Assembly (NCBI RefSeq): GCF_039830145.1
Contig: NZ_CP156083.1
Span: 1-64,000, forward strand
DNA: 64,000 nt
From: Croceibacterium sp. TMG7-5b_MA50
GTDB lineage: Bacteria > Pseudomonadota > Alphaproteobacteria > Sphingomonadales > Sphingomonadaceae
Direction: 5' to 3'
Shown here: positions 36,037-61,474 of the stretch, one piece after another
Numbering within the stretch: the first letter of the stretch is position 1
Layout: each line of letters opens with the position of its first letter
Program-made: the position numbers and the translations under genes
The notes under the pieces: generated by a model
The model's input: only the letters and a program-made list of their open reading frames with translations
The model's database searches: none
What the model was told of the DNA's origin: nothing

Positions 36037-36105
36037 GCGCGGGGGTGATCGGCGCAGACAGGCACCGGCCGCCGGTCTGGAGAGCGGCGGAGAGGCATTG
36101 GCGAG

Positions 36106-36999: not shown

Positions 37000-37018
37000 C
37001 GACACCGGGAGAGAATGC

Positions 37019-39920: not shown

Positions 39921-39921
39921 G

Positions 39922-43331
<3,410 letters not shown>

Positions 43332-43335
<4 letters not shown>

Positions 43336-44930
43336 ACCAGGCCCGCCCCCTCCAGCCGGACGACGGGGATCATGTCGCCGGACGCGGCAGGCGGCAGGTC
43401 GAGTTCCAGCGCGTCCGCCGTCCGGCGGAAGGGGACCGGCCGGCCACCCGTCAGCGTGGCGCGTTCGATCCGCGCGGCCGGCAGCGCCGTCCGCCCCAGC
43501 GCGGCGATCCGCACGGGCTGTCCCGGCCAGTCGAGCAGCACGGCGTTGAGCGTGTCGCCCGTCACCGTGAAGCGGACGTCCTGCGGCGTGAACAGCGTGT
43601 CCCCTTCGGTGTGCATGCCGGCCTGCACGCTTGTCGGGCCTTCGCCGTAGATGCGCCATGGGCGGCTGCCGTGGATCGCGGCCTCTCCGTTCAACTGCAT
43701 CCAGGCGGTGATGCCGTCCAGGACGCGCTCCTCCTCCGCATCGATGGTGCCGTCGCCGCGCATGGGGATGGACAGCAGCAGGTTGCCGTTCTTGGCGACC
43801 ACGTCGCACAGTCGCTGGATCACCTGCTTCGCGGGGACGTAGCTGCGCTGCAGGAAGCGCGCGCGGTTATAATGCCAGTCGCCGATGCAGGTGCAGGTCT
43901 GCCACGGCTGGTCACGCAGCCGGTCGCTCCACCCGCGTTCCACGTCCTCCACCAGCGCCTGCCGTTCGAACGGGGACAGCACCTTGGCGGTCAGCACCAC
44001 GTCCGTCACGCCGTCGCGGGCGATCGCGCCGTTGTAGTAATGCGCCGCCGCCGCCACGCCGACCGGGCCGAAGGGCAGGCCGTAATTGTCGAAATAGACG
44101 ATGTCCGGCCGGTATTTGTCCACCAGGTCGTTCTGCCGCAGCAGCCATTTGTCGGCGAAGGCGGGATTGCCCGGCGGGCTGAATTCCATCCAGCGGCCAT
44201 CATGCGTGGCGTGCCACGCCGCCATCCCGGCGGTGCTGGTGATGCCCGGCGGCGGCGCCATGACCGCGCCGCCATACAGCTCCTGCGGGTCGAGCCCTTC
44301 CCACCATGTGCCCGCGCCATCTTCCTTGGTGAGGTGCCACGCATCGTAGCGTTCGCCCGCGCGCGGCCCTTCCGTGTCGTAGGCGTAGGCGGGCTGGTAC
44401 CAGTGCCATGCGTGGCTGGCATGATTGCTGACGCCGAAGCGCAGCCCTTCTGCCCGGACCGCCCGTTCCCACGTGCCGACGATGTCGCGCCGGGGGCCGA
44501 CGCGCAGCGTGTTCCAGGCGTGATGCGCGCTGTCGTAGGCGTCCAGATTGTCGTGATGGCAGGCCAGCGCCATGACGTATTTCGCGCCCGCCGCCTTGTA
44601 GCGGCGCACCAGCCAGGCCGGATCCCATGCCTCCGCCCGCCAGAGATTCTCGATTTCCATGAAGCCGCGATCCGCCGGGTGGCCGTAGGTCTTCAGGTGA
44701 TGGTCGTAGAACGGGTCGCCCTGCTGGTACATCCGGCGCCCGTACCAGTCGCCGAATTCGGGCACGCATTGCGCGGACCAGTGTGCCCAGATGCCGAACT
44801 TCGCATCGCGGAACCAGTCGGGCAGGCGATAGGTGCCGATCAGCGCCGACCAGTTCGCCGGCATGGTGCCTTGCGCGCGGGCGGCGGCGGGCAGCGCCGC
44901 CAGCGCGGCCAGCAGGGTACGTCTGTCCAT
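43332..44930 (-). CDS. GH29 alpha-L-fucosidase, exported
   Basis: The ATG at 44930 gives 532 residues with a leader 'MDRRTLLAALAALPAAARA'. The GH29 pattern is clear: 'WFRDAKFGIWAHWSAQCVPE', 'YKAAGAKYVMALACHHDN', and the nucleophile Asp281 in 'YRPDIVYFDNYG'. A C-terminal beta-sandwich (about 440-530) follows. GH29 retains configuration and removes terminal L-fucose, as found on fucosylated xyloglucan galactose. It is read divergently from the GH35/GH31 operon and shares with it the promoter containing AACGCTAACATT. Its stop TAG overlaps the GH106 TAA on the other strand (43332-43335). Confidence 0.85.
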
Positions 44931-45051: not shown

Positions 45052-46707
45052 ATGTTTGAGGCGCCGAATCTGATATCGGCCAACAGGCTGCGTGGCGCGC
45101 TGGCGGTCCTCGCGACCGTCGCGCTGACCGGCACGGCCGTGGCACAGACCACACCCCTGCCCCGGCTGGAGCGGGTGGGGGAGCGGCATCTGCTGCACGT
45201 CGATGGGCAGCCATTCCTGATGCTGGGCGCGCAGGCGAACAATTCCAGCAATTACCCCGACGTGCTGCCGCAGGTCTGGCCGATGATGGCGCGGCTCCAC
45301 GCCAATACGCTCGAGATCCCGGTCGCCTGGGAGCAGATCGAGCCTGTCGAGGGGCAATTCGATTTCTCCTACCTCAAGGCACTGGTCGAAGGGGCGCGGG
45401 CGCGGGACCTGAAGCTGGTGCTGCTGTGGTTCGCCACCTGGAAGAACACGGGGCCGGGATATGCCCCCGCATGGGTCAAGACCGACACTGCGCGCTTCCC
45501 CCGGATGCGGACGGCGGAAGGGACCGCGCACTACGTGCTGTCGCCGCATGGCCGCGCCACGCTGGAGGCGGACAAGCGCGCCTTCGTGGCGATGATGACC
45601 TGGCTGCGCGACAACGACCCCGACCATACCGTCATCATGGTGCAGCCGGAGAACGAGACGGGCGCCTACGGCCAGAAGCGCGACCTGTCGGCGGAGGCGA
45701 ACCGCCTGTTCGCCGGGGCCATCCCGGCGGAGCTGGCGGCGCGCACCGGGCGCAGCGGCACCTGGGCCCGCGCCTTCGGCCCGCTGGCGGACAGCGCCTT
45801 CAACGCCTGGCACACCGCCCGCTACATCGACGAGATCGCCGCCGCCGGGCAGGCGGTGCTGGACCTGCCAATGTTCTGCAACGCGGCGCTGAGCGACCCG
45901 TTCAGTCCGCCGGGGCAGGGCGGCGGGGCCAGCGGCGGGCCGGACAGCCCGGTGATCGACGTGTGGAAGGCGGCCGCGCCGCACATCGATTTCGTTGCGC
46001 CCGACATCTACCTGACCGATCCCAGACAGGTGCTGGAGGTGCTGCGGCTGTATGCCCGGCCCGACAACCCGCTGCACGTGCCGGAGATCGGCAACAGCGC
46101 CGCCTTCGCCCGGTATCTGTGGCCGGCGCTGGGGCATGGCGCGATCGGCTTCGCCCCGTTCGGCATGGATGACACCGGCTATTCCAATTACCCGCTGGGC
46201 GCGCGGGTGCTGGACGAGGCGACGGTGGAGGCGTTCGCCGCGCCGTACCGGCTGTTCGCGCCGATGGCGGGCGCCTGGGCACGGGTGGCGGCGGGCAATC
46301 CCGGCTGGGGCACGGCCAAGCTGGCGGACGGCGCGGGGGAGAGCCGCGCGATGGGTCGCTGGACGATCAGCGTCAGTTATGACGAATGGCAGTTCGGATC
46401 GCGCGATTCCCCGTGGCTGAAGTCCGATCCCACGCCGACCGAAGGGCAGCCGGTGGGCGGCGCGGTCGCGGTGCAGACCGGGCCTGACACATTCTTGGTC
46501 GCCGGCGCGGACGCCCGCGTCGCCATCAGCCTGACCAGCCCGGCGGCGGGGGAGACCGGCACGATGCTGTCGGTGGAGGAGGGCACGCTGCGCCCCGACG
46601 GCAGCTTCGCCACCCGCCGCGTGTGGAACGGCGACCAGACCGATTACGGATTGAACTTCACCAAACAGCCCGTCCTGCTGCGGGTCACGATGGGCACCTA
46701 CAAATGA
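45052..46707 (+). CDS. GH35-type beta-galactosidase (with DUF5597-like tail), exported
   Basis: The ATG at 45052 gives 551 residues; a longer reading from 44833 overlaps the divergent GH29 gene. A signal peptide (about 1-32) precedes 'LHVDGQPFLMLGAQANNSS' and 'PVAWEQIEPVEGQFDFSYL', GH35 signatures. The acid/base is Glu202 in 'VQPENETGAYG' and the likely nucleophile Glu345 in 'LHVPEIGNS'. The C-terminal part (from about 420) matches the DUF5597-like extension of related enzymes. Beta-galactose capped by fucose occurs on xyloglucan side chains, which fits GH29 next door. The stop overlaps the GH31 start (ATGA). Confidence 0.8.
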   Translation: MFEAPNLISANRLRGALAVLATVALTGTAVAQTTPLPRLERVGERHLLHVDGQPFLMLGAQANNSSNYPDVLPQVWPMMARLHANTLEIPVAWEQIEPVEGQFDFSYLKALVEGARARDLKLVLLWFATWKNTGPGYAPAWVKTDTARFPRMRTAEGTAHYVLSPHGRATLEADKRAFVAMMTWLRDNDPDHTVIMVQPENETGAYGQKRDLSAEANRLFAGAIPAELAARTGRSGTWARAFGPLADSAFNAWHTARYIDEIAAAGQAVLDLPMFCNAALSDPFSPPGQGGGASGGPDSPVIDVWKAAAPHIDFVAPDIYLTDPRQVLEVLRLYARPDNPLHVPEIGNSAAFARYLWPALGHGAIGFAPFGMDDTGYSNYPLGARVLDEATVEAFAAPYRLFAPMAGAWARVAAGNPGWGTAKLADGAGESRAMGRWTISVSYDEWQFGSRDSPWLKSDPTPTEGQPVGGAVAVQTGPDTFLVAGADARVAISLTSPAAGETGTMLSVEEGTLRPDGSFATRRVWNGDQTDYGLNFTKQPVLLRVTMGTYK

Positions 46708-49580
46708 GGGCACTTCCTATGCTGCGTACCCTGACCATGACCGCCGTGGCGCTGTGCCTCGCCGGTCCGGCCCTCGCCAGCGAGGTCGCGCGCCTGCCGC
46801 ATGGCGTTTTGGTGACGCCCGATGCCGGCCCGGCGAAGGCGGTGCGGGTGCTGGTCTATGGCGACGGGCAGTTCCGCGTCACCGCCATGCCGGCGGGCGA
46901 CACCCGCGTGCCCGACAGCCTGATGGTGATCGCCGACCCGGTGGAGGACTTCACCTTCGCCCAGACCGGCGATGCCGTAACCCTCAGCACCGCGACCGGC
47001 ACGGCGGAGGTGCGGCTGGCCGACGGGCATGTGCGCGTGCTGGACGCCGCCGGGGCGGAGCTGCTGAGCGAATCCCCGCGCACGCCGTTCCAGCCAGTGA
47101 CGATCCAGGGGCGCACCTTCCAGCAGATCAGCCAGCAGTTCAACCGCGGCACCGACGAAGGCTTCTACGGCCTGGGCCAGCACCAGAACCGGCAGATGAA
47201 CTACAATGGGGAGGACGTGGAGCTCGCCCAGCACAACATGGACATCGCGGTGCCCTTCGTTGTGTCCACCAAGGGGTACGGCCTGCTGTGGGACAATGAA
47301 TCGATCACCCGGTTCGGCGATCCGCGCCCGCCGCAGCTGATCGGCGCGGATGCCACGGACGCGCTGAAGGTGACGAGCAACGGCCAGCCGGGCTGGCAGG
47401 CGGAATACTACCTGGGTGACACGCTGGCCGTGCGGCAGGTCGAGCCCGTCATCAACTACCAGTATCTGCGCGACCAAGCCCGCTGGCCGGAGGCGGCGAA
47501 GGCGACCACCGTGGCCTCGGGCGAAAGCGGGCAGAACACGCAAGGGGTCGCCACGCAATCGCAGCGCGTGGTGTGGACCGGCACGCTGCAGCCGGAGGCG
47601 GACGGCGTGCACAAGCTGCGGCTCTATTCCAGCAGCTATGTCCGCGTGTTCGCCGACGGCAAGGAGGTGCTGAACCGCTGGCGGCAGAACTGGAACCCCT
47701 GGTACCACAATTTCGACCTGCCGCTGAGTGCCGGCAAGCCGGTGGAGCTGCGCATCGAATGGGAGCCCAACCAGGGCTACATCGCGCTGTTCGGCAGCGA
47801 CCCGCTGGCCGACGAGGATCGCCATTCGCTGTGGCTGTCGAGCGAGGCGGCGGAGGCGATCGACTATTATGTCGTGACCGGGCAGGACATGGACGGCGTG
47901 ATCGCCGGCTATCGCGACCTGACCGGCAAGGCGGCGCTGATGCCCAAATGGGCCTACGGCTTCTGGCAGAGCCGCCAGCGCTACGACACGCAGGACCAGT
48001 TGCTGGACGTGGTGCGCGAATATCGCCGGCGGCGCATCCCGCTCGACAACATCGTGCTCGACTGGCGGTACTGGACCGATCCGACCTGGGGCAGCCACGA
48101 ATTCGACGCCACCCGCTTCCCCGATCCGGTGAAAATGGTGGAGGAGGTCCACCAGCTCGACGGGCGGATCATGATCTCCGTCTGGCCCAAGTTCTACCCG
48201 ACCACGAAAAACGGGCAGGAGCTGGACGCAGCCGGCTTCCTGTACCGCCGCCCGCTGGAGGCGGGGCAGAAGGACTGGGTGGGTCCGGGCTACGCCAACA
48301 CGTACTACAACCCGTACACCAAGCCGGCGCGCGACATGTATTTCCGCCAGATCAAGGAGGCGCTGGTCGACAAGGGCTTCGACGCGTGGTGGATGGATGC
48401 GGTGGAGCCGGACTGGCATTCCAACCTGTCGGTGGAGGAGCGCAAGTACCAGATGGGCCCGACCGCGCGCGGGCCGGGCGCGTTCGTGTTCAACTCCTAC
48501 CCCCTGATCCATGCGGAAGGGATGGCCGACGGCCTGCGGGACGCGCAACCGGACCGGCGGCCGTTCATCCTGACGCGGTCCGGCTTCGGCGGGATCCAGC
48601 GGACCAGTTCGGCGCTGTGGTCGGGCGACGTCGCCGCACGGTGGGACGATCTGCGCGACCAGATCAGCGCGGGCGTCAACATCTCCCTGTCGGGCATCCC
48701 CAACTGGACGCATGATATCGGCGGTTTCGCGGTGGAGGACCGCTACACCCGCGCGGAGCCCGAGCATCTGCCCGAATGGCGGGAGCTGAACCTGCGCTGG
48801 TTCCAGTTCGGCGCCTGGACCCCGCTGTTCCGCAGCCATGGCGAGACCCCGTACCGCGAGGTGTACGAACTGGGGAAGGACGATCCGGCGATGTACCGGG
48901 CGATGGTCGGCCTGATCGAGCAGCGCTACCGGCTGCTGCCCTACATCTACTCGGTCGCGGCGGACACATACTGGCAGGACGGCACCATCATGCGCGGCCT
49001 GCCGATGGATTTCGCCGCCGACCGGGAGGTGTGGGGCGTCGATGACCAGTACATGTTCGGCCCCGCCTTCCTGGTGGCCCCGGTGACGGAGCGGGGCGCC
49101 ACGTCGCGGCAGGTGCGCCTGCCCGCCGGGGCGGACTGGTACGATTGGCGCAGCGGCGCGTTCCATCGCGGCGGGCAGGCGATCACCGCGCCGGCCGCGC
49201 GGGAGGAGATCCCGGTCTATGTCCGCGCGGGTGCCATCGTGCCCACCGGTCCCGCCATGCAGCACAGCGCGGAGCAGCCCGACGGGCCGATCGTGCTGCA
49301 CGTCTTCACCGGTGCCGACGGCGCCTTCACTTGGCAGGAGGATGACGGCACCACCCATGGTTATCAGCAGGGGCAGCGGTCCGCCGTGCCGATCAGCTGG
49401 AACGATGCGGCCGGCACGCTGACGATCGGCGCGCGCCAGGGCTCCTGGCCGGGGATGGCGGGGCAGCGGGCGATCTCCGTCCGCTTCCACCAGCCGGACC
49501 GGGCGGTCGCCCCCGACTTCAGTGAGAATGGAGAGCACAGCCTGACCTATGACGGAACGGCGGTGACGGTGCGCCGCTGA
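46704..49580 (+). CDS. GH31 alpha-xylosidase-like enzyme with PA14 insert, exported
   Basis: Starting at the ATGA-coupled ATG 46704 (an ATG at 46719 is also plausible) the product has 958 residues and a signal peptide. After the GH31 N-terminal beta-sandwich, a PA14-type domain is inserted (about 263-366, 'VVWTGTLQPEADGVHKLRLY'). The catalytic barrel has 'PLDNIVLDWRYWTD', nucleophile Asp565 in 'WWMDAVEPDW' and acid/base Asp642 in 'ALWSGDV'. GH31 enzymes with a PA14 insert include xyloglucan-specific alpha-xylosidases, in which PA14 helps bind long oligosaccharides. With GH29, GH35 and GH74 in the same locus, alpha-xylosidase is the best reading. Confidence 0.85.
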   Translation: MRALPMLRTLTMTAVALCLAGPALASEVARLPHGVLVTPDAGPAKAVRVLVYGDGQFRVTAMPAGDTRVPDSLMVIADPVEDFTFAQTGDAVTLSTATGTAEVRLADGHVRVLDAAGAELLSESPRTPFQPVTIQGRTFQQISQQFNRGTDEGFYGLGQHQNRQMNYNGEDVELAQHNMDIAVPFVVSTKGYGLLWDNESITRFGDPRPPQLIGADATDALKVTSNGQPGWQAEYYLGDTLAVRQVEPVINYQYLRDQARWPEAAKATTVASGESGQNTQGVATQSQRVVWTGTLQPEADGVHKLRLYSSSYVRVFADGKEVLNRWRQNWNPWYHNFDLPLSAGKPVELRIEWEPNQGYIALFGSDPLADEDRHSLWLSSEAAEAIDYYVVTGQDMDGVIAGYRDLTGKAALMPKWAYGFWQSRQRYDTQDQLLDVVREYRRRRIPLDNIVLDWRYWTDPTWGSHEFDATRFPDPVKMVEEVHQLDGRIMISVWPKFYPTTKNGQELDAAGFLYRRPLEAGQKDWVGPGYANTYYNPYTKPARDMYFRQIKEALVDKGFDAWWMDAVEPDWHSNLSVEERKYQMGPTARGPGAFVFNSYPLIHAEGMADGLRDAQPDRRPFILTRSGFGGIQRTSSALWSGDVAARWDDLRDQISAGVNISLSGIPNWTHDIGGFAVEDRYTRAEPEHLPEWRELNLRWFQFGAWTPLFRSHGETPYREVYELGKDDPAMYRAMVGLIEQRYRLLPYIYSVAADTYWQDGTIMRGLPMDFAADREVWGVDDQYMFGPAFLVAPVTERGATSRQVRLPAGADWYDWRSGAFHRGGQAITAPAAREEIPVYVRAGAIVPTGPAMQHSAEQPDGPIVLHVFTGADGAFTWQEDDGTTHGYQQGQRSAVPISWNDAAGTLTIGARQGSWPGMAGQRAISVRFHQPDRAVAPDFSENGEHSLTYDGTAVTVRR

Positions 49581-49774: not shown

Positions 49775-49818
49775 TAATGAGTCAGACAATTAGACTCGCG
49801 GTTCAGGGGAGGCTGTTC

Positions 49819-52800
49819 ATGAAGCTTGCACAGGGGCATGGCCGCGGTGTTGCGGGGCTGCGCGCGGGCGCATCCACGATCGCGCTGGCGGCGATCGCGA
49901 TGACATTCCCGGCCTCCGCCCAGCAGGAGGTGCCGGGTTCGATCGATACTACGCAGGAAGCGGCGCCCGGCGCCGATGTCGGCGAGACGCCTGATAATGG
50001 AGACACGATCGTCGTCACCGGCCGCCGCGCCGCGCTGGAGGCGGCGGAGGACCGCAAGCGCCGCAGCGAGACGATCCTCGATTCCATCGTGGCCGACGAT
50101 GCCGGCCGCCTGCCGGATAATTCGATCACCGAAGTGCTGCAGCGCGTGTCCGGCGTGTCGATCGTGCGCTTCGCCGCCTTGGGCGACCCCGACCATTATT
50201 CCGCGCAAGGATCCGGCGTGCAGGTGCGCGGCCTGACCGGCGTGGCATCGCGGCTGAACGGGCGGGAGATCTTCAGCGCCAATGGCGGCCGCGCCATCCT
50301 GTGGAGCGACGTTACGCCCGAGCTGATGGCCGCGGTCGACGTTTACAAGGCGTCCACCGCCGACCTGATCGAAGGCGGCACCGGCGGGCAGATCGACCTG
50401 CGCACCAAGATGCCGTTCGACTTCGACGATGGTGAGTTCCACCTCGCCGGTACGGCGGAGGTCAGCGCGGGCGACCTGGCGGAGAAGTTCGACCCGATGG
50501 CGTCGGTCCTGCTGACGGATTCGTTCGACACCGGCATCGGCCGCATCGGCGTGCTGGCCGACATCGCGTACAGCCAGTTCAGTTCGCTGTCGCAGTTCAT
50601 CCGCGTGGAACCGTATCTCCGGACCAGGATCGGCGCGCGCGACTATTACGTTCCGGCCGGCTTCACCTATGGCGAGGAGGCGTTCCGCTATCGCCGCAAT
50701 GGCCTATACGGCGCGGTCCAGTGGCAGCCGAACGACGACCTGACCTTCAGCGCGACCTATTTCCAGACCAAGTACAACAGCCGGTCCAGCGATTACGGTG
50801 CGCAGGTCAGTTCGCAGGCGCTGGCCGTCGATCCGGCAAACAGCACGTTCGATGACGACGGTCTGCTGCTGAGGACCGACTCGCTGTTCAACCGCGACAC
50901 TGCGACGTTCCTGCCCAGCACTTCCCAGGTGAACAGCAGCGGCAACAAGGGATACGTGGACAGCGAGACGAAGACGCAGGATTACTCCCTGTCCTTCATC
51001 TGGGATCCGGAGGATGGTCCGCTGAAGATCAGCGGCGCGCTGCAGCGGGTGGATTCGCGCCAGATCTACGACCGGCTCGACATCTTCCGCGAGGTCGGCT
51101 TCGGCCTCGGCTTCGGCATGGACCTGACCGGCGACCTGCCGCTGATCACCGTGTCGCCGGGTGTGCGCGACAGCTTCGCCAACCCGGCCAATTACCTCTG
51201 GTCGGCGTCCATGCCGCATAACGAGGACAACAAGGGCCGGCTCGACACCGCGCAGCTGGACCTGGAGTACGAATTCGACGACAGCTTTTTCCGCTCCATC
51301 AAGGTCGGCGGGCGCGTGGCGGAACGGACCGAGCGCGACTTTGCCAATGGCTACAACTGGGCGGCGCTGGGCCGCGGCTGGAACGGCGATCCGCAGCTGA
51401 CCTTCGCCAATGCGGCGCCGGGCGATGTCGACCTCTACATCTTCAAGGACTTCTTCCGCGGCGAGACGGCCCTGCCGGGCAATCTGTATTTCGCGACGGA
51501 GGAGCTGGCCGCCCGGCTGGACCGGACCGAGCTGACCCAGCCGCCGCCGGCCGGCTTCTGCCCGCCGGGGACGGAGTTCAACTGTTCGGCATCCGGCCCG
51601 CTGCCGCGCACCGGTTATGGCGGGGCCGGCGGCATCCGCCCGGTCGGTTTCGTCCTGCCGGACGACCGCGTGGACAACCAGACGATGAACTACGCCGCCT
51701 ATGCGCTGGCGCGGTTTGGCCCGGAATTCGACGAAGAGGGCATTTCGGGCAATGTCGGCGTGCGTGTCGTGCATATCGAGAACGAGGGCAGCGGCTTCGT
51801 CCGCCAGAGCGGCGTCACCTTCATCCGTGATGGCCGCACCTTCACCCTGACGAACTCGGCCGTGCCGCGTGGCGGGAAGGCTGAATTCACGCGGGTGCTA
51901 CCCTCGATCAACCTGGCCTATTCGCCGACGCCGGACATCAAGCTGCGCGCCAGCTACAACATCACGCTGGACCTGCCGACGTTCAACGCGCTGCGGGCTT
52001 CTGGCGGGGTGGGCGTGGCGACCACCAGCAATCCGGTGCAGGGGCAGCCCGGCATCTTCACCAATTTCACTGCCGAGACGGGCAACCCGCTGCTGAAGCC
52101 GGCGCTGTCGAACAATATCGACTTTTCGGCGGAGTATTATCTCACCGCCGGCACCTCGTTCCACTTCGCGCCATTCTACAAGCGGCTGACCAACATGCCG
52201 ATCTTCTCCCTGACGGAGCGGGAGGTGACGGTCGTCTATGCCGACGGCACCAGCGAAACGGCGACAGCGGCAGCGACCGACTACAGCAACGCGGAAGAAG
52301 CGGCCGAGGTGAAGGGCTTCGAGGTCGGCGGGCGTTTCTTCCTCGACTGGCTGTCCGGCTTCGTCAGCGGGTTCGGGTTCGAAGGCAACTACACCTTCAT
52401 CGACAGCAAGAATCCGGGTGACGTGTACCGCGACATCAATGGCCAGATCCGGTCGGACGCGCCGCTGGTGGGCCTGTCGCGGCATAATTTCAACGCCACG
52501 CTGCTGTACGAACGCGACCCGATTTCCTTCCGCGTCGCCTATTCCTGGCGGTCGAAATACCTGCAATCGACCAACAGCAACGGCACCAATCCGAGCTTCC
52601 CGTATTACAGCGCGCCGGGCGTGGTGACCAACCTGTTGAACGGCACGGCGACGAACACGCAGATCGCGCTGCCGGTCTACGGCGACAAATACGGGTCGCT
52701 GGACGCGGGCATCCGGCTGCGGGTGAACGAGAACGTGTCCGTCGGCATCCAGGGCACCAACCTGACCGCCGCGACGCAGCGCACATTGATGGGCGGTTAC

Positions 52801-52875
52801 CCGGGCGGCTTGCGCGGACGCAGCTGGTTCCAGGCGGACCGGCGGCTCAACCTGGGCGTCAACGTGTCGTTCTGA
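49819..52875 (+). CDS. TonB-dependent receptor (xyloglucan locus)
   Basis: The ATG at 49819 has a strong AGGGGAGG site 6 bp upstream and gives 1018 residues; an ATG at 49777 would add 14 residues without such a site. A signal peptide is followed by TonB box 'DTIVVTGRRAALEAAEDRK', a plug with 'DDAGRLPDNSITEVLQRVSG' and a long barrel ending 'LNLGVNVSF'. It is of the large TIGR01782-like class for oligosaccharides. Two LacI-type operator candidates lie upstream, and two halogenase-like flavoprotein genes follow, an arrangement typical of sphingomonad and Caulobacter glycan loci. The likely cargo is a xyloglucan oligosaccharide. Confidence 0.9.
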   Translation: MKLAQGHGRGVAGLRAGASTIALAAIAMTFPASAQQEVPGSIDTTQEAAPGADVGETPDNGDTIVVTGRRAALEAAEDRKRRSETILDSIVADDAGRLPDNSITEVLQRVSGVSIVRFAALGDPDHYSAQGSGVQVRGLTGVASRLNGREIFSANGGRAILWSDVTPELMAAVDVYKASTADLIEGGTGGQIDLRTKMPFDFDDGEFHLAGTAEVSAGDLAEKFDPMASVLLTDSFDTGIGRIGVLADIAYSQFSSLSQFIRVEPYLRTRIGARDYYVPAGFTYGEEAFRYRRNGLYGAVQWQPNDDLTFSATYFQTKYNSRSSDYGAQVSSQALAVDPANSTFDDDGLLLRTDSLFNRDTATFLPSTSQVNSSGNKGYVDSETKTQDYSLSFIWDPEDGPLKISGALQRVDSRQIYDRLDIFREVGFGLGFGMDLTGDLPLITVSPGVRDSFANPANYLWSASMPHNEDNKGRLDTAQLDLEYEFDDSFFRSIKVGGRVAERTERDFANGYNWAALGRGWNGDPQLTFANAAPGDVDLYIFKDFFRGETALPGNLYFATEELAARLDRTELTQPPPAGFCPPGTEFNCSASGPLPRTGYGGAGGIRPVGFVLPDDRVDNQTMNYAAYALARFGPEFDEEGISGNVGVRVVHIENEGSGFVRQSGVTFIRDGRTFTLTNSAVPRGGKAEFTRVLPSINLAYSPTPDIKLRASYNITLDLPTFNALRASGGVGVATTSNPVQGQPGIFTNFTAETGNPLLKPALSNNIDFSAEYYLTAGTSFHFAPFYKRLTNMPIFSLTEREVTVVYADGTSETATAAATDYSNAEEAAEVKGFEVGGRFFLDWLSGFVSGFGFEGNYTFIDSKNPGDVYRDINGQIRSDAPLVGLSRHNFNATLLYERDPISFRVAYSWRSKYLQSTNSNGTNPSFPYYSAPGVVTNLLNGTATNTQIALPVYGDKYGSLDAGIRLRVNENVSVGIQGTNLTAATQRTLMGGYPGGLRGRSWFQADRRLNLGVNVSF

Positions 52876-52924: not shown

Positions 52925-54478
52925 ATGCGCAAGAAGGTCCTGATCGTCGGCGGCGGTACCGCCGGGTGGCTCACCGCCGGGTACCTGGCCCGGCGGCTAG
53001 GCGCCGACCTGCCGGGCGGCGTGGAGCTGCACCTGGTGGAATCGGCGGAGATCGGGACCATCGGGGTGGGGGAGGGGACCTTTCCCACCATCCGCCGGAC
53101 GCTGGCCACCATCGGCATCGGCGAGGCGGAGCTGGTCAGCCGCTGCGGCGCCAGCTTCAAACAGGGGGCGAAATTCACCCACTGGCGCCACGCGCCGGGC
53201 GATCCCGGACCCGACCATTACACGCATCCGTTCCAGAATGCGGAGAGCGCGGGCGGGCTGGACCTGCTGCCATACTGGCTGCTGGGCCATGGCGGCACGG
53301 CCAATTGGGACGAGGTGTGCAGCCCGCAGAAGAAGGCCGCCGATGCCGGGCGGGCGCCCAAGCTGCCCAGCCATCCGGACTACACCGCGCCGCTCAACTA
53401 CGCCTACCACTTCGATGCCGCTGCCCTGGCCGACCTGCTGCGGGACAAGGCGGTGGCGAACGGCGTCACCCACCTGTCGGACCGGGTGACGGAGGTCCGC
53501 CTGGGCGATGACGGCGCGATCGCCGGCATCGTGACCGAACGCCACGGCACGCTGACGGCGGACCTTTATATCGATTGCACCGGCTTTCGCGCGGAGCTGA
53601 TCGGCAAGGCGCTGGGCGTGCCGTACCGCTCGTGCCGCGACGTGCTGTTCTGCGACCGGGCGCTGGCGCTGCAGGTCCCCTATGCCAGCGCCGATGCGCC
53701 CATCGCGTCATATACCCTGGCGACGGCGCAGGATGCCGGCTGGGTGTGGGACATCGGGCTGGAGACGCGGCGGGGTATCGGCCACGTCTATTCCTCCGCA
53801 CATTCGGACGATGCGGCGGCGGAGGCGGCGCTGCGCGCCTATGTCGGCCCCGCCGCCGACCGGCTGGAACCGCGCGCGATCCGCTTCGATGCCGGCTACC
53901 GCGAGATCAACTGGCATCGCAACTGCGTCGCCATCGGGCTGTCGAGCGGCTTCTTCGAACCGCTGGAGGCGACCGGCATCGTGTTTTCCGAAGTCGCCGC
54001 CGGGATGGTCGCCAACCTGTTCCCGTGGGGCGGCGATCACGAAACCTCCGCCCGGCAGTTCAACGCCAACATGCTGCGCCGGTACGAACGGGCGCGCGAC
54101 TTCATCAAGCTGCATTATTGCCTGACCGAGCGGCGCGACACGGCGTTCTGGCGCGACAATGCCGAAGCGGCATCCGTGCCGGACAGTTTGCGGGAGCTGA
54201 TCGAGCGCTGGCGGTTCCGCCCGCCGACGGAGATCGACATCGATGCCAATGTCGACATCTTCACCGAAGCGAGCTGGCAATATGTGTTCTACGGCATGGG
54301 CGGGCAGACCGATCTCCGCCCACGCGCGGGCGTGTTCCGCTACGCCGCGGAGGCGCGCGCCGCCTTCGCGCAGGTGGAACGGCAGGCCGCCTACGCCATC
54401 GCCAACCTGCCCACCAACCGCGACCTGATCGCCCAGGCGCGCCGCCGCCCGTTCGGCCAGGTGGGCATGGCCGCATGA
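52925..54478 (+). CDS. Tryptophan-halogenase-like flavoprotein 1
   Basis: The ATG at 52925 (GGAGG site 5 bp upstream) gives 517 residues. It has the FAD motif 'VGGGTAGW' (8-15), the flavin-dependent halogenase motif 'GVGEGTFP', Lys79 in 'SFKQGAKF' at the position of the catalytic Lys of tryptophan 7-halogenase, and 'EPLEATG'. The WxWxIP signature reads 'GWVWDIGL' (Trp272, Trp274), so the Ile-Pro end is altered. Members next to TonB receptors have mostly unknown substrates; halogenation of a free aromatic is not obviously useful in a polysaccharide locus. It overlaps the second halogenase gene by ATGA. Confidence 0.8.
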   Translation: MRKKVLIVGGGTAGWLTAGYLARRLGADLPGGVELHLVESAEIGTIGVGEGTFPTIRRTLATIGIGEAELVSRCGASFKQGAKFTHWRHAPGDPGPDHYTHPFQNAESAGGLDLLPYWLLGHGGTANWDEVCSPQKKAADAGRAPKLPSHPDYTAPLNYAYHFDAAALADLLRDKAVANGVTHLSDRVTEVRLGDDGAIAGIVTERHGTLTADLYIDCTGFRAELIGKALGVPYRSCRDVLFCDRALALQVPYASADAPIASYTLATAQDAGWVWDIGLETRRGIGHVYSSAHSDDAAAEAALRAYVGPAADRLEPRAIRFDAGYREINWHRNCVAIGLSSGFFEPLEATGIVFSEVAAGMVANLFPWGGDHETSARQFNANMLRRYERARDFIKLHYCLTERRDTAFWRDNAEAASVPDSLRELIERWRFRPPTEIDIDANVDIFTEASWQYVFYGMGGQTDLRPRAGVFRYAAEARAAFAQVERQAAYAIANLPTNRDLIAQARRRPFGQVGMAA

Positions 54479-56013
54479 CGCAGCCGCGACCGCTGGGCCG
54501 GATCGTCATCGTCGGCGGCGGCACGGCGGGGTGGATGACGGCGGCGGTGCTGGCGCGGCTGGTGCCGGGCGGCACGTCGGTCACGCTGGTGGAATCGGAT
54601 GCGATCGGCACTGTCGGCGTGGGGGAGGCGACGCTGCCCTCCCTCAGCGACCTGCACCGCCTGCTCGGCATTCAGGAGGACGCCTTCATCCGGGCGACCG
54701 GCGCCACCTTCAAGCTGGGGATCGAGTTCGCCGGCTGGGGCGCGGCGGGCACCCGCTACTTCCACCCATTCGGCACGTACGGCCGCGATGCGGCGGGGCT
54801 GCCGTTCCATCAGCTATGGCTGCGCAAGCTGGCGCAGGACGGGCCGGCGGCGGCGGGCGGGATCGAGGATTACTGCCTCAGCGCGGTCGCCGCGCGCGAA
54901 GGGCGCTTCACCCGGCCGGCGGGGGAGGCGAACGCGGTGCTGGCATCCTTGCGCTACGCCTTCCACCTGGATGCGGGGCTCTATGCCGCGTTCCTGCGCC
55001 AATATGCGGAAGGCGGCGGTGTGCGGCGGGTGGAGGGCCGCATCCGGGAAGTCGCGCTGGCGCCCGACACCGGCTGCATCGATGCGGTGGTGCTGGACGA
55101 CGAGCGGCAGGTCGCGGGCGATTTCTTCGTGGATTGCAGCGGCTTCCGGTCGCTGCTGCTGGGCGGTGCGCTGGGCGTACCGTTCGTCAGCTGGCAGCAC
55201 TGGCTGCCGTGCGACCGGGCACTGGCCGTGCCCAGCGCCGTCGCGGGTGCGGCGCATCCCTTTACCCGGTCCACCACCACCGGGGCCGGCTGGCGCTGGC
55301 GCATTCCGCTGCAGCACCGCGTCGGCAACGGTCATGTCTATGCCAGCGCGTTCACCGACGACGGCGCCGCGGCGGACGCGCTGCTGGCGGGTCTCGACAG
55401 TCCCGCCACGGCGGAGCCGCGGCCGATCCGTTTCACCGCCGGCGTGCGCGAGCGGTTGTGGGAACGCAATTGCGTCGCCGTCGGCCTCGCCGGCGGGTTC
55501 CTGGAGCCGCTGGAATCCACCGGCATCCACCTGATCCAGTCCGGCATCACCCGCCTGATGAGCCTGCTGCCCGATAGCGGGCACGACCCGGCGGGGCGGG
55601 CGCAATACAACAGGCTGCTGCGGGAGGAATACGAGCAGGCGCGCGATTTCGTGCTGCTGCATTATATCGCCGCCGGGCGGCAGGATACGCCGTTCTGGCG
55701 CCATTGCCGCGCCACCACGCCGCCCGACACGCTGGCCCACGCGATTGAGCTGTGGCGCGGGCGCGGGCGGGTCATGCCGCCCGCCGGGCACCTGTTCACG
55801 CCGCCAAGCTGGGTCGCCGTGCTGCTGGGCCAGGCGGGACCGCCGCAATCATACGATCTGCAGGCCGACCTGCTGCCGGCGGCCGAACTGGCCCGCTTCC
55901 TGGCGCATCTGCGCGACGTGATCGGCCGGACCGCCGCCGCCATGCCCGATCACGGGGCTTTCATCGCACGCAACTGCGCCGCCGCTGGCGCGGCGCGCAC
56001 AATTGCCGCCTGA
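54475..56013 (+). CDS. Tryptophan-halogenase-like flavoprotein 2
   Basis: The 512-residue protein has 'IVGGGTAGWMTA' for FAD, 'GVGEATLPSL', Lys80 in 'TFKLGIEF', the intact WxWxIP signature in 'GWRWRIPLQHRVGNGHVYAS' and 'LEPLESTGIHLI'. All landmarks of active flavin-dependent halogenases are therefore present, more completely than in the preceding paralogue. It is coupled by ATGA to that gene and followed after 15 bp by the GH39 gene. The two paralogues are diverged and may work as a pair. The substrate could be an aromatic residue or a phenolic attached to cell-wall polymers; this is speculation. Confidence 0.85.
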   Translation: MTQPRPLGRIVIVGGGTAGWMTAAVLARLVPGGTSVTLVESDAIGTVGVGEATLPSLSDLHRLLGIQEDAFIRATGATFKLGIEFAGWGAAGTRYFHPFGTYGRDAAGLPFHQLWLRKLAQDGPAAAGGIEDYCLSAVAAREGRFTRPAGEANAVLASLRYAFHLDAGLYAAFLRQYAEGGGVRRVEGRIREVALAPDTGCIDAVVLDDERQVAGDFFVDCSGFRSLLLGGALGVPFVSWQHWLPCDRALAVPSAVAGAAHPFTRSTTTGAGWRWRIPLQHRVGNGHVYASAFTDDGAAADALLAGLDSPATAEPRPIRFTAGVRERLWERNCVAVGLAGGFLEPLESTGIHLIQSGITRLMSLLPDSGHDPAGRAQYNRLLREEYEQARDFVLLHYIAAGRQDTPFWRHCRATTPPDTLAHAIELWRGRGRVMPPAGHLFTPPSWVAVLLGQAGPPQSYDLQADLLPAAELARFLAHLRDVIGRTAAAMPDHGAFIARNCAAAGAARTIAA

Positions 56014-56028: not shown

Positions 56029-57606
56029 ATGTTCACCTCGCTCGCATTGCGGCGGATCGCGGCCGCCGCGCTGGCCATCGTGACACTCACGCCGGCAAGC
56101 GCGCAGGATGCCGCCCCGGCCCGGCGGATCGAGGTCGACCTGTCCCGCGCGGCGGGGCCGATGGACCGGTCCTTCGACCTGTCGGTCGGATCCGATTACT
56201 CGGGCACGCTGCGCCGGCCGGAGAACCTGGCACAGCTCGCCATCGCGGTGGACGAACTGGGTTTCCGCTATGTCCGGTTCCACGACATCTTCCACGACGA
56301 CCTCGGCACGGTGAAGCAGCAGGATGGCCGCATCACCTATGACTGGGCGGAGCTGGACCGGCTGATCGATGCGCTGCTGGCGCGCAACATCCGACCCTTC
56401 GTGGAACTGGGCTTCACGCCGGGCGCGCTGAAGACGTCGGAACAGACGATCTTCTACTGGAAGGGCAACACCTCCCACCCCCGGATGGACGGTTGGGCCG
56501 ATCTGGTCGACGCCTTCGTCCGCCACGCACGCGAACGCTATGGCGCGAACGAGGTGCGCCGCTGGTATTTCGAGGTGTGGAACGAGCCCAATCTGGCCGG
56601 TTTCTGGGAAGGCGCCGACCAGCAGGCCTATTTCGACCTCTATGCCGCCAGCGCGCGCACGATCAAGGCGATCGACCCGCAATTGCGCGTCGGCGGGCCA
56701 TCCACCGCGGGGGCGGACTGGGTGCCCGAACTGCTCGCCTTCGTGGCGGCGAACGATCTGCCGATCGATTTCGTGACCACGCATACCTACGGCGTCGATG
56801 GCGGCTTCCTGGACGAGAAGGGGCAGGACGACAATCGACTGTCCACCAACCCGGACGCGGTGATCGCCGATGTGCGCAAGGTGCGCGGCGAGATCGACGC
56901 GACCGCATATCGCGGGCTGCCGCTGTTCTTTACCGAATGGAGCGCCAGCTACAATCCGCGCGATCCGGTCCATGACAGCTATATCAGCGCGCCCTACATC
57001 CTATCCCGGCTGCGCGGCACGCAGGGGCTGGCGCAGGGGATGAGCTACTGGACGCATACCGACCTGTTCGAGGAACCCGGCCCGCCGTCCACGCCGTTCC
57101 ACGGCGGCTTTGGCCTGATGAACCGCGAAGGCATCCGCAAGGCCGCCTGGTTTGCCTACCGCTACCTGCACGAGGTCGAGGGTGACGCGATCCCGCTGAC
57201 CGATAACGAGGCATTGGCCGCCACGGCGGATGGCGAGACGGACGTGCTGCTGTGGGCCTGGCGCCAGCCGCCGCAGGAGTTGAGCAACCGCCCTTTCTTC
57301 ACCACCGTGCTGCCGGCCCGGCCGATCGAACCGGCGGAGCTGCAGTTTTCCGGGCTGGCGCCGGGCCGCTACACGCTGACGGTCAGGCGCACCGGGTTCC
57401 GGCAGAACGATGCGCACACCCGCTATCTGGAGATGGGCTCCCCCGCCGAACTGGACGCAGCGCAACTGGCGGAGTTGCAGGCGCTGACGCAGGACCGGCC
57501 GGAGATCAGCCGCGCGGTCGAGATCGGCACGGACGGGCGCTACAATCTGCGGATCGACATGCGCAGCAACGATGTCGTCCTCGCCACGCTGGCGCCTGGG
57601 GCATGA
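56029..57606 (+). CDS. GH39 beta-xylosidase-like enzyme, exported
   Basis: The 525-residue enzyme has a signal peptide (about 1-26) and a GH39 TIM barrel: 'GFRYVRFHDIFHDD', acid/base Glu186 in 'FEVWNEPNLAGFW' and nucleophile Glu303 in 'LFFTEWSASY'. A C-terminal beta-sandwich follows from about residue 400. GH39 members hydrolyse beta-xylosides or, in other branches, alpha-L-iduronides; the bacterial pattern points to beta-xylosidase. It would process xylo-oligosaccharides or xylose-containing side chains within this locus. A ribosome-binding site (GGAGAG) precedes the start, and the stop overlaps the GH43 start by ATGA. Confidence 0.85.
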   Translation: MFTSLALRRIAAAALAIVTLTPASAQDAAPARRIEVDLSRAAGPMDRSFDLSVGSDYSGTLRRPENLAQLAIAVDELGFRYVRFHDIFHDDLGTVKQQDGRITYDWAELDRLIDALLARNIRPFVELGFTPGALKTSEQTIFYWKGNTSHPRMDGWADLVDAFVRHARERYGANEVRRWYFEVWNEPNLAGFWEGADQQAYFDLYAASARTIKAIDPQLRVGGPSTAGADWVPELLAFVAANDLPIDFVTTHTYGVDGGFLDEKGQDDNRLSTNPDAVIADVRKVRGEIDATAYRGLPLFFTEWSASYNPRDPVHDSYISAPYILSRLRGTQGLAQGMSYWTHTDLFEEPGPPSTPFHGGFGLMNREGIRKAAWFAYRYLHEVEGDAIPLTDNEALAATADGETDVLLWAWRQPPQELSNRPFFTTVLPARPIEPAELQFSGLAPGRYTLTVRRTGFRQNDAHTRYLEMGSPAELDAAQLAELQALTQDRPEISRAVEIGTDGRYNLRIDMRSNDVVLATLAPGA

Positions 57607-59255
57607 GTTACAACCGCCGCGACACGATCCGTCTGGCGCTGGCTGGCGGCGGCACGCTGGCAGGTGGCGCCCTGCTGCCGCAGGCGCCCGCCGATGCGGC
57701 GGGAGCAGCGGCGGAGGCGGGGGGCGCGCCCTTGTGGCGTCCGGGGGTCGAGGGGCAGCGCCGCGCCGACCTCGGCAACGGGACGTACCGCAATCCGGTG
57801 CTCGCCGGCGACCGGCCCGATCCCAACGTGCTGAAGGATGGGGAGGATTACTACGCGGCCTTCTCCTCCTTCCTGTATTATCCCGGCGCGCCGATCTGGC
57901 ATTCGCGCGATCTGGTGAACTGGACCCCTCTGGCCGCCGCGGTGACGATGCCGATCGGCTCCATCTGGGCGCTCGACATCGCGAAGGTCGGCGACACCTA
58001 TTACATCTACATCCCCGCGCTGGACGATGCCGACCCGGCCCGGCCGCTCAAGACCTATGTCGTCCATGCGCCCAGCATGGCCGGCCCGTGGAGCGATCCC
58101 ATCGACCTGCATCTCGATGGCATGATCGATCCCGGTCACGCCATCGGGGAGGATGGCGGGCGGTACCTGTTCTTCAACGGCGGCAACCGCGTGCGGCTGA
58201 GCGATGACGGCCTGTCCGCGGCCGGCGCGGTGAGCCATGTCTATGATGGCTGGCCGATCCCGGAAGACTGGATCATCGAAGGCTTCGCGCTGGAAGGACC
58301 CAAGATCACCCGGCACGGCGGCTGGTTCTACATGTTCTCCGGCCAGGGCGGCACGGCCGGGCCGCCGACCAGCCACATGGTGGTGGTCGCCCGCTCTCAT
58401 TCCATCGACGGGCCGTGGGAGAACTGTCTGCACAACCCGATCGTGCGCACCGCCAGCCGGGAGGAGCCGTGGTGGTCGCGCGGCCATGCCACGGCGCTGG
58501 AGGGGCCGGACGGCCGCTGGTGGCTGGTCTACCACGGATACGAGAACGGTCTGCGCACACTGGGCCGGCAGATGCTGCTGGAGCCGATGGAGTGGACGGC
58601 GGATGGCTGGCCGGGCGCCACCGGCGGCGACCTGGGTCGGCCACTATCCATGCCGGGTGCCGGTGGTGGGGACCATGGGCAGGCCCTGTCTGGCTTCGCC
58701 CCCGATGCGATCGGGACGCGGCTGACCTTCTGGGCGCCCCGGTCGGGCTATCTGGACCGCGCGCGTATCGCCGATGGCGCGCTGACCCTGTCGACGCAGG
58801 GGACCGGGCCTGCCGACGCCTCCCCGCTGCTGTTCGTCGCGGGCGACCGGTCTTACGAGATCGAGGTGGAGGTGGCGATCGAGGGCGACACGCAGGCGGG
58901 CCTGCTGCTGTTCTACAACGAGAAGCTGTTTTGCGGCCTCGGCCTCGGCACCGAACGCCTGCATGCCTGGCGCATCGGGCAGGAGGAGCGCTGGCCGCCC
59001 GGCGCGCCGATCGATGCGCCGCGCCTGTTCTTGCGGCTGGTGATGGAGGAGAACGTCGTCACCTTCCTCCACAGCCCCGACGGGCGCCGCTGGACCAAGG
59101 AGCGGTCGTACGAGGTGGGCGGCTACAACCACAATGTCGCGGACGGCTTCCTGAGTCTGCGGCCCGGCTTCTACGCTGCGGGGCAGGGGCGGGCGACCTT
59201 CCGCGGGCTGACCTATCGTGCCCTGGCCGATGTAGAGGACGTGGTGCGGGCGTGA
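57603..59255 (+). CDS. GH43 enzyme with C-terminal beta-sandwich, exported (Tat-like)
   Basis: The 550-residue protein has an RR leader ('NRRDTIRLALAGGGTLAG') and a five-bladed GH43 propeller (about 60-360) with base Asp73 in 'RPDPNVLKDG', the pKa-modulating Asp176 in 'DGMIDPGH' and acid Glu231 in 'FALEGPKI'. A second domain (about 385-545) resembles the concanavalin-like beta-sandwich (DUF1349-like) of beta-xylosidases and arabinofuranosidases. It should remove beta-xylose or alpha-L-arabinofuranose, matching arabinoxyloglucan or arabinoxylan side chains. ATGA and GTGA overlaps connect it to GH39 and GH74. Confidence 0.85.
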   Translation: MSYNRRDTIRLALAGGGTLAGGALLPQAPADAAGAAAEAGGAPLWRPGVEGQRRADLGNGTYRNPVLAGDRPDPNVLKDGEDYYAAFSSFLYYPGAPIWHSRDLVNWTPLAAAVTMPIGSIWALDIAKVGDTYYIYIPALDDADPARPLKTYVVHAPSMAGPWSDPIDLHLDGMIDPGHAIGEDGGRYLFFNGGNRVRLSDDGLSAAGAVSHVYDGWPIPEDWIIEGFALEGPKITRHGGWFYMFSGQGGTAGPPTSHMVVVARSHSIDGPWENCLHNPIVRTASREEPWWSRGHATALEGPDGRWWLVYHGYENGLRTLGRQMLLEPMEWTADGWPGATGGDLGRPLSMPGAGGGDHGQALSGFAPDAIGTRLTFWAPRSGYLDRARIADGALTLSTQGTGPADASPLLFVAGDRSYEIEVEVAIEGDTQAGLLLFYNEKLFCGLGLGTERLHAWRIGQEERWPPGAPIDAPRLFLRLVMEENVVTFLHSPDGRRWTKERSYEVGGYNHNVADGFLSLRPGFYAAGQGRATFRGLTYRALADVEDVVRA

Positions 59256-61474
59256 GGTATCGGCGTCGATGGCCCATCGTTGCGGCGCTGGCCTTGCTGT
59301 CGCCGGTGCCGGCCATCGCCCAGGCGGGCGAAACCGCTTACGAATGGCGTAACGTGGTGGTGGGCGGCGGCGGCTTCGCGCCGGGGATCGTGTTCAGCCC
59401 GGTCGAGCGTGGCCTCGCCTATCTGCGCACCGACATGGGCGGCGCCTATCGCTGGGATGCGACGGAGGCACGCTGGCTGCCGCTGCAGGACGGCGAGGCG
59501 GTGTCGAGCTTCATGGGCATCGAGAGCATCGCCCCCGATCCGGTCGATGCCGATGTGGTCTATCTGGCGGCGGGCATGTCGGCGCGCGGGGCGGCGGCGA
59601 TCTTCCGCTCCGCCGACCGTGGCGCCACCTGGCGGCGTACGCGCGTGCCCTTCGCCATGGGCGGGAACGAGGATGGGCGCGGCATGGGCGAACGGCTGGC
59701 GGTCGATCCGCACAACACTGCCACCCTGCTGTACGGGTCGCGGCACGACGGGTTGTGGCGCAGCGACGATGCCGGCGAACATTGGGGCAAGGTGGCGGGC
59801 TTCCCGCTGGTCGGCCTCGGCCTGCCGGATCGGCCGCGCACCACGCATGGCGGCCTGTCCTTCGTCCTGTTCGACCGTGCCCGACCGGGCCGGATCGTCG
59901 TCGCCAGCGCCGATCCCGGCACGCAGCACCTGTTCCGATCCGACGATGGCGGCGCCACATGGCAGGCGGTCGCGGGCGGCCCGCCCGGCGATCTGTTCCC
60001 GGTGAAAGGCGTGATCGGCGGCGACGGGGTGCTGACCGTCACCTATTGCGACGCGATCGGTCCCAACGGCATCCGCCGCGGCGCCGTCTGGCGGCTGGAC
60101 CTGGCGAGCGGGAGCTGGACCGATGTGACTCCGCTGAAGGGCGCGGCAGTGGTGCCGGGCGGGTATATGGGGCTGGCGGTCAGCGCCACTGACCCGCAGG
60201 TGATCGCGGTCGGCACGGTCAACCGCTACCGTCCGGGCGACACACTATGGCGCAGCGCCGACGGGGGCCGCAGTTGGAGCGAGCTGTGGCGGCGCAGCAC
60301 GCGCGATGTCGCCGCCACCCCGTTCCTGGCGTTCGACGATCCGGAGCCCGATTTCGGCCACTGGATCGCGGGGCTGGCGATCGACCCGTTCGATCCGGAC
60401 CGGGCCGCCTATGTCACCGGCGCGACCACCTACGCCACCGATGCGTTCGGCGATCCCGGCACGATGCGCTGGGCTCCATGGACGCGGGGCATCGAGCAGA
60501 CCGCGATCATCACGCTGGTCAGCCCCACCGGCGGCGCGCCGCTGGTGTCCGGCTTCGGCGATCTGGGCGGGTTCCGGCACGACGATCTGCGCGTGTCGCC
60601 GCCGCGCGTGCATCTCCACCCGTTCCTGACCAACACCAATTCGCTCGATTATGCGGGCGCGGCCCCGCAGGTGATGGTCCGCAGCGGCAACACCCATGCG
60701 CCGACCGTGCCCGACACCTCGCTCGCCTGGTCGGGCGATGGCGGGGCGAGCTGGTCGCCCCTGCGCCTGCCGGCGGAGGAACGGGCCGCCGGTGCGCCGC
60801 CGCTGCCGCAAGAAACGGGCAGCGCCGCGATCACCGTCTCCGCCGATGGCAGCGCCTTCGTGGTGGAGACGCTGGCACCGCTGGTCACGCGCGACCGGGG
60901 GCGGAGCTGGTCCGCGATCGCCGGCCTGCCTGCCGGCACGCGGGTCACGGCGGACAAGCAATCGGCCCGTCATTTCTACGCCCTCGACTTCGCCGCGGGC
61001 GACATCCTGCGCAGCGAGGATGCCGGCGCCTCCTTCCACCCCATCGGCAGCCGCGGCCTGCCGGCGGACCTCACCCCCGCACAGGCGACGGGGCGGGAAG
61101 CGGCCAATCCGCTGGTGGCGGTGCCGGGCAGCGCAGGCGCACTGTGGCTGCTGGTGGGGAGCGACCTCTACCGTTCCACCGATCACGGCGCCGGTTGGAC
61201 GCAGGCCAGCCGCGATATCCGCATCCGCCGGTACGGCCTGGGGCAGGCGGCGCCGGGCAGCGCGTGGCCCGCGCTCTATGCCATTGCGGAGCAGGGCGGG
61301 CAGGACGGCATCTACCGATCGCTGGATGGTGGCGGGACGTGGCGGCGGATCAACGACGACGCGCATCAATGGGGCCTGCGCCTGCGCGTCATCAGCGGCG
61401 ATCCGCGCCGGTTCGGCCGCGTCTATGTCGGGACGGACGGGCGCGGGATCATGTATGGCGACCCGCTGCCGTAG
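59252..61474 (+). CDS. GH74 xyloglucanase-like enzyme, exported
   Basis: Translation starts at a GTG that overlaps the GH43 stop (GTGA), giving 740 residues with a signal peptide (about 1-23). Two seven-bladed propellers of Asp-box-like repeats fill the protein ('IFRSADRGATWRR', 'LWRSDDAGEHWGK', 'LFRSDDGGATWQ', 'LWRSADGGRSWSE'). The family motif 'LRTDMGGAYRWD' near residue 50 carries one catalytic Asp, and 'IDPFDPDRAAYVTGATTY' lies in the second propeller. GH74 enzymes cut the beta-1,4-glucan backbone of xyloglucan. This is the clearest pointer to xyloglucan as the locus substrate. Confidence 0.85.
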   Translation: MRYRRRWPIVAALALLSPVPAIAQAGETAYEWRNVVVGGGGFAPGIVFSPVERGLAYLRTDMGGAYRWDATEARWLPLQDGEAVSSFMGIESIAPDPVDADVVYLAAGMSARGAAAIFRSADRGATWRRTRVPFAMGGNEDGRGMGERLAVDPHNTATLLYGSRHDGLWRSDDAGEHWGKVAGFPLVGLGLPDRPRTTHGGLSFVLFDRARPGRIVVASADPGTQHLFRSDDGGATWQAVAGGPPGDLFPVKGVIGGDGVLTVTYCDAIGPNGIRRGAVWRLDLASGSWTDVTPLKGAAVVPGGYMGLAVSATDPQVIAVGTVNRYRPGDTLWRSADGGRSWSELWRRSTRDVAATPFLAFDDPEPDFGHWIAGLAIDPFDPDRAAYVTGATTYATDAFGDPGTMRWAPWTRGIEQTAIITLVSPTGGAPLVSGFGDLGGFRHDDLRVSPPRVHLHPFLTNTNSLDYAGAAPQVMVRSGNTHAPTVPDTSLAWSGDGGASWSPLRLPAEERAAGAPPLPQETGSAAITVSADGSAFVVETLAPLVTRDRGRSWSAIAGLPAGTRVTADKQSARHFYALDFAAGDILRSEDAGASFHPIGSRGLPADLTPAQATGREAANPLVAVPGSAGALWLLVGSDLYRSTDHGAGWTQASRDIRIRRYGLGQAAPGSAWPALYAIAEQGGQDGIYRSLDGGGTWRRINDDAHQWGLRLRVISGDPRRFGRVYVGTDGRGIMYGDPLP

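Follow-up and report, generated by a model that had tools for sequence, protein, structure and literature searches.

Introduction

In vitro, the flavin-dependent halogenases BrvH and Xcc4156 both act slowly on free indole compounds, which they halogenate (PMC5945002; PMC7336383). For BrvH and the Xanthomonas enzymes, the native substrates were stated to be unknown (PMC7336383), and the same was stated for BrvH in its own report (PMC5945002). The only activity known for BrvH is a slow bromination of indole, and its authors doubted that indole is the natural substrate. A second halogenase gene, 42.7% identical, lies upstream of the BrvH gene, and a link to TonB-dependent receptors (TBDRs) was not mentioned (PMC5945002). 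The gene neighbourhood of Xcc4156 was left undiscussed (PMC7336383).

Our literature search found no paper joining a tryptophan halogenase, a TBDR and polysaccharide loci. The GlcNAc-induced genes of Xanthomonas presumably include a halogenase-like gene near a TBDR, and the bare adjacency of a halogenase and a TBDR has probably been seen before.

A pair of halogenase genes, denoted HAL1 and HAL2, was analysed in Croceibacterium sp. TMG7-5b_MA50. The window was the whole stretch of DNA analysed, 64,000 nucleotides at the start of contig NZ_CP156083.1. This contig has 200 kb, and the genome of 3.24 Mb has three PF04820 genes. A dedicated link of these halogenases to sugar TonB receptors is well supported, and the receptor itself is a candidate target.

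Halogenase Genes and Catalytic Motifs

The genes and motifs of the pair are located as follows.

52925..54478, + strand: HAL1, flavin-dependent halogenase of the WxWxIG clade, 517 aa, start ATG at 52925 (PF04820, E=8e-132)
52949..52966, + strand: FAD-binding GGGTAG of HAL1 (motif in translation)
53153..53167, + strand: SFKQG of HAL1 with catalytic Lys79 (motif; Lys invariant in 223 relatives)
53741..53758, + strand: WVWDIG of HAL1, the clade form of WxWxIP (motif; alignment of relatives)
53960..53977, + strand: PLEATG of HAL1 with catalytic Glu348 (motif; alignment of relatives)
54475..54478, + strand: ATGA, HAL1 stop overlapping HAL2 start (reading frames)
54475..56013, + strand: HAL2, flavin-dependent halogenase with canonical WxWxIP, 512 aa (PF04820, E=2e-175)
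54706..54720, + strand: TFKLG of HAL2 with catalytic Lys80 (motif)
55291..55308, + strand: WRWRIP of HAL2 (motif)
55507..55524, + strand: PLESTG of HAL2 with catalytic Glu347 (motif)

The preliminary description of two diverged tryptophan-halogenase-like proteins coupled by ATGA was borne out. Both frames and the overlap at 54475-54478 are present, the PF04820 matches are full-length (440.7 bits for HAL1 and 584.5 bits for HAL2, cut-off 21), and the two proteins are 40% identical. The GxGxxG motif for FAD occurs in each as GGGTAG. HAL2 does carry every active-site landmark ascribed to it, namely GxGxxG, K80, W273xW275xI277P278 and E347-S348. The landmarks of HAL1 differ in two points only: the WxWxIP motif reads WVWDIG, and EA replaces ES.

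The altered WxWxIP motif reported for HAL1 is therefore present and is accompanied by the change to EA, which the preliminary description left out, but it is a conserved form and not an erosion. At the last position of the motif, 111 of the 223 aligned relatives have P and 97 have G. Moreover, 2PYX from Shewanella frigidimarina, the solved chain nearest to HAL1, shares the WxWDIG form and reads WIWDIG. Because WxWxIG is kept in these 97 relatives and in 2PYX, it is a clade marker, and decay of the HAL1 motif was ruled out. The catalytic Lys (K79 of RebH), the Glu and both motif Trp are invariant in all 223 aligned relatives of both types, which disfavours a loss of activity. On the strength of these motifs, HAL1 and HAL2 are probably catalytically active. 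The pair is intact, conserved and of a known family (PF04820), in an underexplored role.

Besides 2PYX, 9LTB (Altererythrobacter) and 9LU2 (Pseudoalteromonas) were also among the nearest solved chains of HAL1 by sequence. The fold matches of its AlphaFold2 model, which was built from only 12 sequences and had a mean pLDDT of 71, were all flavin-dependent halogenases, with 9LTB and 2PYX first. The nearest solved relative of HAL2 was Xcc4156 from Xanthomonas campestris (6Y1W), with 499 bits over nearly the whole length, followed by BrvH from Brevundimonas BAL3 (6FRL), which has K83 and WxWxIP, and then by 9LUQ. No functional study of the 9LTB, 9LU2 and 9LUQ entries was found in the literature search.

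Xyloglucan Locus Around the Pair

The genes surrounding the pair are listed below.

43332..44930, - strand: GH29 alpha-L-fucosidase (PF01120, E=2e-80)
45052..46707, + strand: GH35-like beta-galactosidase with DUF5597 (profile match)
46719..49580, + strand: GH31 alpha-xylosidase, upstream of the TBDR (best match alpha-xylosidase 7KMP, E=2e-300)
49777..52875, + strand: TBDR (TonB-dependent receptor), 1032 aa, TIGR01782 family (NCBIfam TIGR01782, E=4e-159; PF00593/PF07715)
56029..57606, + strand: GH39 glycosidase, 15 bases behind HAL2 (PF01229, E=1.5e-87)
57603..59255, + strand: GH43 glycosidase, 4-base overlap with GH39, start as called (PF04616, E=1e-82)
59252..61474, + strand: GH74 xyloglucanase (best matches are solved xyloglucanases, E=5e-139)

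The pair does lie between a TonB receptor and glycosidases, with the TBDR upstream and GH39, GH43 and GH74 downstream. The name of a xyloglucan locus given to the surroundings was right, since the best matches of GH74 are solved xyloglucanases and those of GH31 are alpha-xylosidases. The TBDR scored 531.6 bits against TIGR01782 (cut-off 310) and is a member of this family. The stop of the TBDR is followed by the start of HAL1 after 49 bases, and GH43 and GH74 overlap by 4 bases. Owing to the short gaps (49 and 15 bases) and the 4-base overlaps, the series TBDR-HAL1-HAL2-GH39-GH43-GH74 reads like one transcription unit.

SapC and Cupin_8 genes are absent from the window locus, so that it does not form a TBDR-SapC-Cupin_8-halogenase cassette. 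No flavin reductase gene was seen in the xyloglucan locus; two stand-alone flavin reductase genes occur elsewhere in the genome. A free-tryptophan halogenase of a biosynthetic cluster was considered and rejected, as none was present in the examined surroundings, about 30 to 64 kb.

Two further features were observed upstream. About 14-20 kb upstream, at window 32551-38032, an aromatic-catabolism-like cluster precedes the xyloglucan locus and holds an FAA hydrolase, a FAD_binding_3 monooxygenase, a LysR regulator, a glyoxalase/dioxygenase and a cupin. A large GH106 alpha-L-rhamnosidase, unexpected for plain xyloglucan, lies just before the fucosidase (window 39904-43335).

Association of Halogenases With TonB-Dependent Receptors

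Matches to HAL1 were found in 89 of 150 genomes of the family, with up to ten per genome. In five genomes fully scanned for both families, a TIGR01782 TBDR was located within about 5 kb at all 18 of the PF04820 loci. The chance of this outcome under random placement is near 10^-22, the receptor counts being approximate. The present genome gave 52 TIGR01782 match rows (some receptors being split), about twice as many as the relatives compared, and its third PF04820 gene belongs to a TBDR-SapC-Cupin_8-HAL cassette on the main contig (locus L004).

The order TBDR-HAL1-HAL2 is conserved in Sphingobium, Sphingomonas and two other relatives, with HAL1 identities of 70-77%, and several loci of this arrangement also share the hydrolase families of the window. 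In Nitrospirillum, the order is TBDR-HAL-TBDR-HAL, each halogenase having its own TBDR, and the adjoining genes look like GH31 and GH35. Alpha-, beta- and gammaproteobacteria all have recurring TBDR-HAL arrangements, often in the form of TBDR-HAL-SapC-Cupin_8-HAL cassettes. The genera include Sphingobium, Sphingomonas, Nitrospirillum, Caulobacter, Duganella, Pseudoxanthomonas, Shewanella, Colwellia, Alteromonas and others. From Sphingomonadaceae to Alteromonadales, the loci in which the enzymes adjoin TBDRs differ greatly in their glycoside hydrolases, which makes a substrate special to plant xyloglucan unlikely.

A TIGR01782 TBDR is not found near one group of HAL1-like genes; among its members, some have another receptor type, and others have none visible. 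In several genomes, HAL1-like genes without a TBDR (L077, L079, L080 and L163) adjoin small antitoxin-like and PIN toxin-like genes. A small partner peptide was rejected as a substrate of these enzymes, as the neighbours of 82 and 165 aa resemble, by eye, an antitoxin/PIN-toxin pair.

The pair had rightly been regarded as odd in its place. Halogenation indeed has no evident use in xyloglucan breakdown, but the halogenases are not peculiar to xyloglucan, and their constant partner is almost certainly the TonB receptor. A target tied to the receptor is more likely than one tied to the sugar because this enzyme type travels with such receptors generally.

Extracellular Loop of the Receptor

The candidate region of the receptor is described by the following features.

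51343..51666, + strand: longest extracellular loop of the TBDR, residues 523-630, between barrel strands 505-522 and 631-647 (AlphaFold2 model)
51358..51360, + strand: codon of Trp528 (YNW), second loop Trp, retained by some receptors lacking a halogenase (sequence comparison)
51379..51381, + strand: codon of Trp535, candidate target; column best separating halogenase-adjacent from other receptors (column scan)
TBDR loop peptides (candidate substrate): FANGYNWAALGRGWNGDPQ

The AlphaFold2 model of the TBDR had a mean pLDDT of 79.8, with W535 in the longest loop and low confidence inside this loop. The alternation of short turns with long loops in the model would place residues 523-630 on the outer side of the membrane. 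In an unbiased scan of all alignment columns, W535 was the best separator, with W in 85% of 54 halogenase-adjacent TBDRs versus 1 of 21 others. The extra loop Trp was scored on raw loop sequences and not on the long all-receptor alignment. In the enlarged set with other families, it was present in 102 of 145 receptors with a halogenase versus 4 of 73 without, where the loop definition was refined after the first data were seen and the added families replicate the association only partly. The loop takes the forms NNFWQAY, QNDTWGG, LGDWGI, SEVWSG and GRGWNG, and the Trp has a similar position in each. Where Cupin_8 is present, 69 of 73 receptors have the loop Trp.

Two contrasts stand out. In a lineage without a halogenase nested among halogenase-bearing receptors, both loop Trp are gone (GYRYTGL), and SAPW of a halogenase-bearing receptor (L266) corresponds to SAPP in a relative without one (L256). 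The first trees contained about five independent Trp-halogenase contrasts, about three of them for the association and almost none against. With the added families, about 4.3 concordant versus 1.1 discordant independent pairs were obtained, a difference that was not significant. The association is mostly shared ancestry. Receptors and halogenases are inherited together, and the loop Trp is thus a lead and not a result. Furthermore, many receptors with a single halogenase have no loop Trp (independent sample of other families, no Cupin_8), and it is missing in 12 of 13 single-halogenase cassettes with SapC and without Cupin_8. The loop Trp of a sugar receptor may also bind the glycan.

Other receptor sites were noted. 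In halogenase-SapC cassettes without Cupin_8 (L189, L194, L195, L203, L180 and L307), a two-cysteine loop, e.g. QCAFCGYG, replaces the Trp loop. A second Trp of the receptor (NWFNTPFD; residue 403 of the trimmed protein) is almost always kept in SapC/Cupin_8 cassettes (44 of 45, in a set of receptors itself selected for the loop Trp); it is found in the TBDR at L004:13126-16320 and its relatives. The C-terminal receptor motif RSWFQxDRR was rejected as a universal target, its Trp being missing in most halogenase-adjacent receptors.

Proposed Role of the Pair and Alternative Explanations

The pair may serve the TBDR with which it appears to be co-transcribed rather than xyloglucan. HAL1 and HAL2 have no evident signal peptide and hence would be cytoplasmic. 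Their FADH2 could be supplied by a stand-alone flavin reductase encoded elsewhere. The target would most likely be an aromatic residue of the TBDR before its export, with Trp535 (and Trp528) as the first candidates, and halogenation or oxidation of the loop residue may tune glycan binding or loop stability. We infer this mechanism from three observations, namely the dedicated TBDR association, the conservation of the catalytic residues and the loop Trp. A probability of roughly 35% is assigned to the whole chain, i.e., active cytoplasmic halogenases serving a co-transcribed TBDR with some residue of this TBDR as the target. The narrower proposal that the target of the pair is a Trp of the TBDR is tentative and rather doubtful. 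The general form, in which a widespread halogenase class puts halogen (or oxygen) on an extracellular-loop Trp of the adjoining sugar receptor before export, is unlikely. Counted against a TBDR target is that a cytoplasmic enzyme must catch an outer-membrane protein before its export.

The main rival of a receptor target is a small cytoplasmic aromatic, either an indole compound or a signal of receptor use, with shared regulation accounting for the TBDR link. The retention of every catalytic residue and the closeness of HAL2 to Xcc4156 and BrvH, which act on indole compounds in vitro, agree with such a substrate. However, the low indole activity of BrvH was doubted as natural by its own authors (PMC5945002), and biosynthetic genes are absent beside the pair, the neighbours being glycosidases and the TBDR. 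Moreover, a free metabolite leaves unexplained why each halogenase tracks a receptor, as in TBDR-HAL-TBDR-HAL. This explanation is possible, though somewhat unlikely.

Another protein of the receptor system (SapC, a TonB/ExbB partner or a periplasmic protein) might instead be modified, the loop Trp being a glycan-binding residue inherited with the cassette. SapC and Cupin_8 genes accompany the halogenases in many cassettes, and the second Trp is nearly as conserved in these cassettes; the ancestry behind the Trp-halogenase link points the same way. However, both genes are missing at the window locus. SapC is therefore no general target, unless the main-contig cassette (L004) supplies it in trans. 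Modification of another such protein is judged rather unlikely.

The flavin peroxide could also be used to hydroxylate or oxidise rather than to halogenate, with HAL1 the more changed of the two enzymes. WxWxIG and EA in HAL1, replacing WxWxIP and ES, are consistent with this, whereas neither clade varies in the Lys needed for halogen transfer, and oxidation as the sole activity is very unlikely.

Phenolic decorations of plant cell-wall material had been suggested earlier as a substrate, and the locus breaks down a plant polysaccharide with the aromatic-catabolism-like cluster upstream; this is highly improbable, as the same enzymes adjoin TBDRs beside other glycosidases in bacteria of marine and freshwater habitats, and polymer-bound phenolics would be out of reach of cytoplasmic enzymes. 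The earlier suggestion of non-catalytic flavin sensors of the locus, with which the changed HAL1 motif and the lack of a flavin reductase gene in the locus would fit, is just as remote in view of the catalytic Lys, Glu and Trp pair invariant in 223/223 relatives and the two reductase genes elsewhere.

Comparison With Known Systems

The tryptophan halogenases PrnA, RebH, Thal and PyrH share the fold and family of HAL1 and HAL2, but they belong to antibiotic pathways, whereas the present pair belongs to a glycan locus. Free-tryptophan halogenases of the PrnA/RebH type are defined by a lid at the C-terminus, which binds the amino acid moiety of Trp. The alignment of HAL1 and HAL2 to RebH, a sequence alignment and not a site-by-site comparison, ends before the C-terminal part.

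QhpG and LodB, flavoenzymes that act on protein Trp, are among the best NCBIfam equivalog matches of the pair. Their profiles gave 34.6 and 39.2 bits against a cut-off of 240 and 27.5 bits against 400, and the pair is not a member of either. Any likeness would be one in the way of working, and membership is excluded by scores far below the cut-off. By analogy, QhpG and LodB may serve as a family precedent and are counted for a TBDR target; their scores below the cut-off, the action of BrvH and Xcc4156 on free indoles, and the subset of HAL1-like genes without a nearby TIGR01782 TBDR are counted against it.

For the group of BrvH and Xcc4156, the dedicated companionship with TBDRs redirects the search for the native substrate to the receptor system and away from free metabolites. 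Halogenation of a receptor Trp, if it occurs, would to our knowledge be a novel type of protein modification in bacteria and would add a new level of control over glycan uptake. For BrvH-like enzymes, an outer-membrane transporter halogenated after its translation would then be the missing native substrate.
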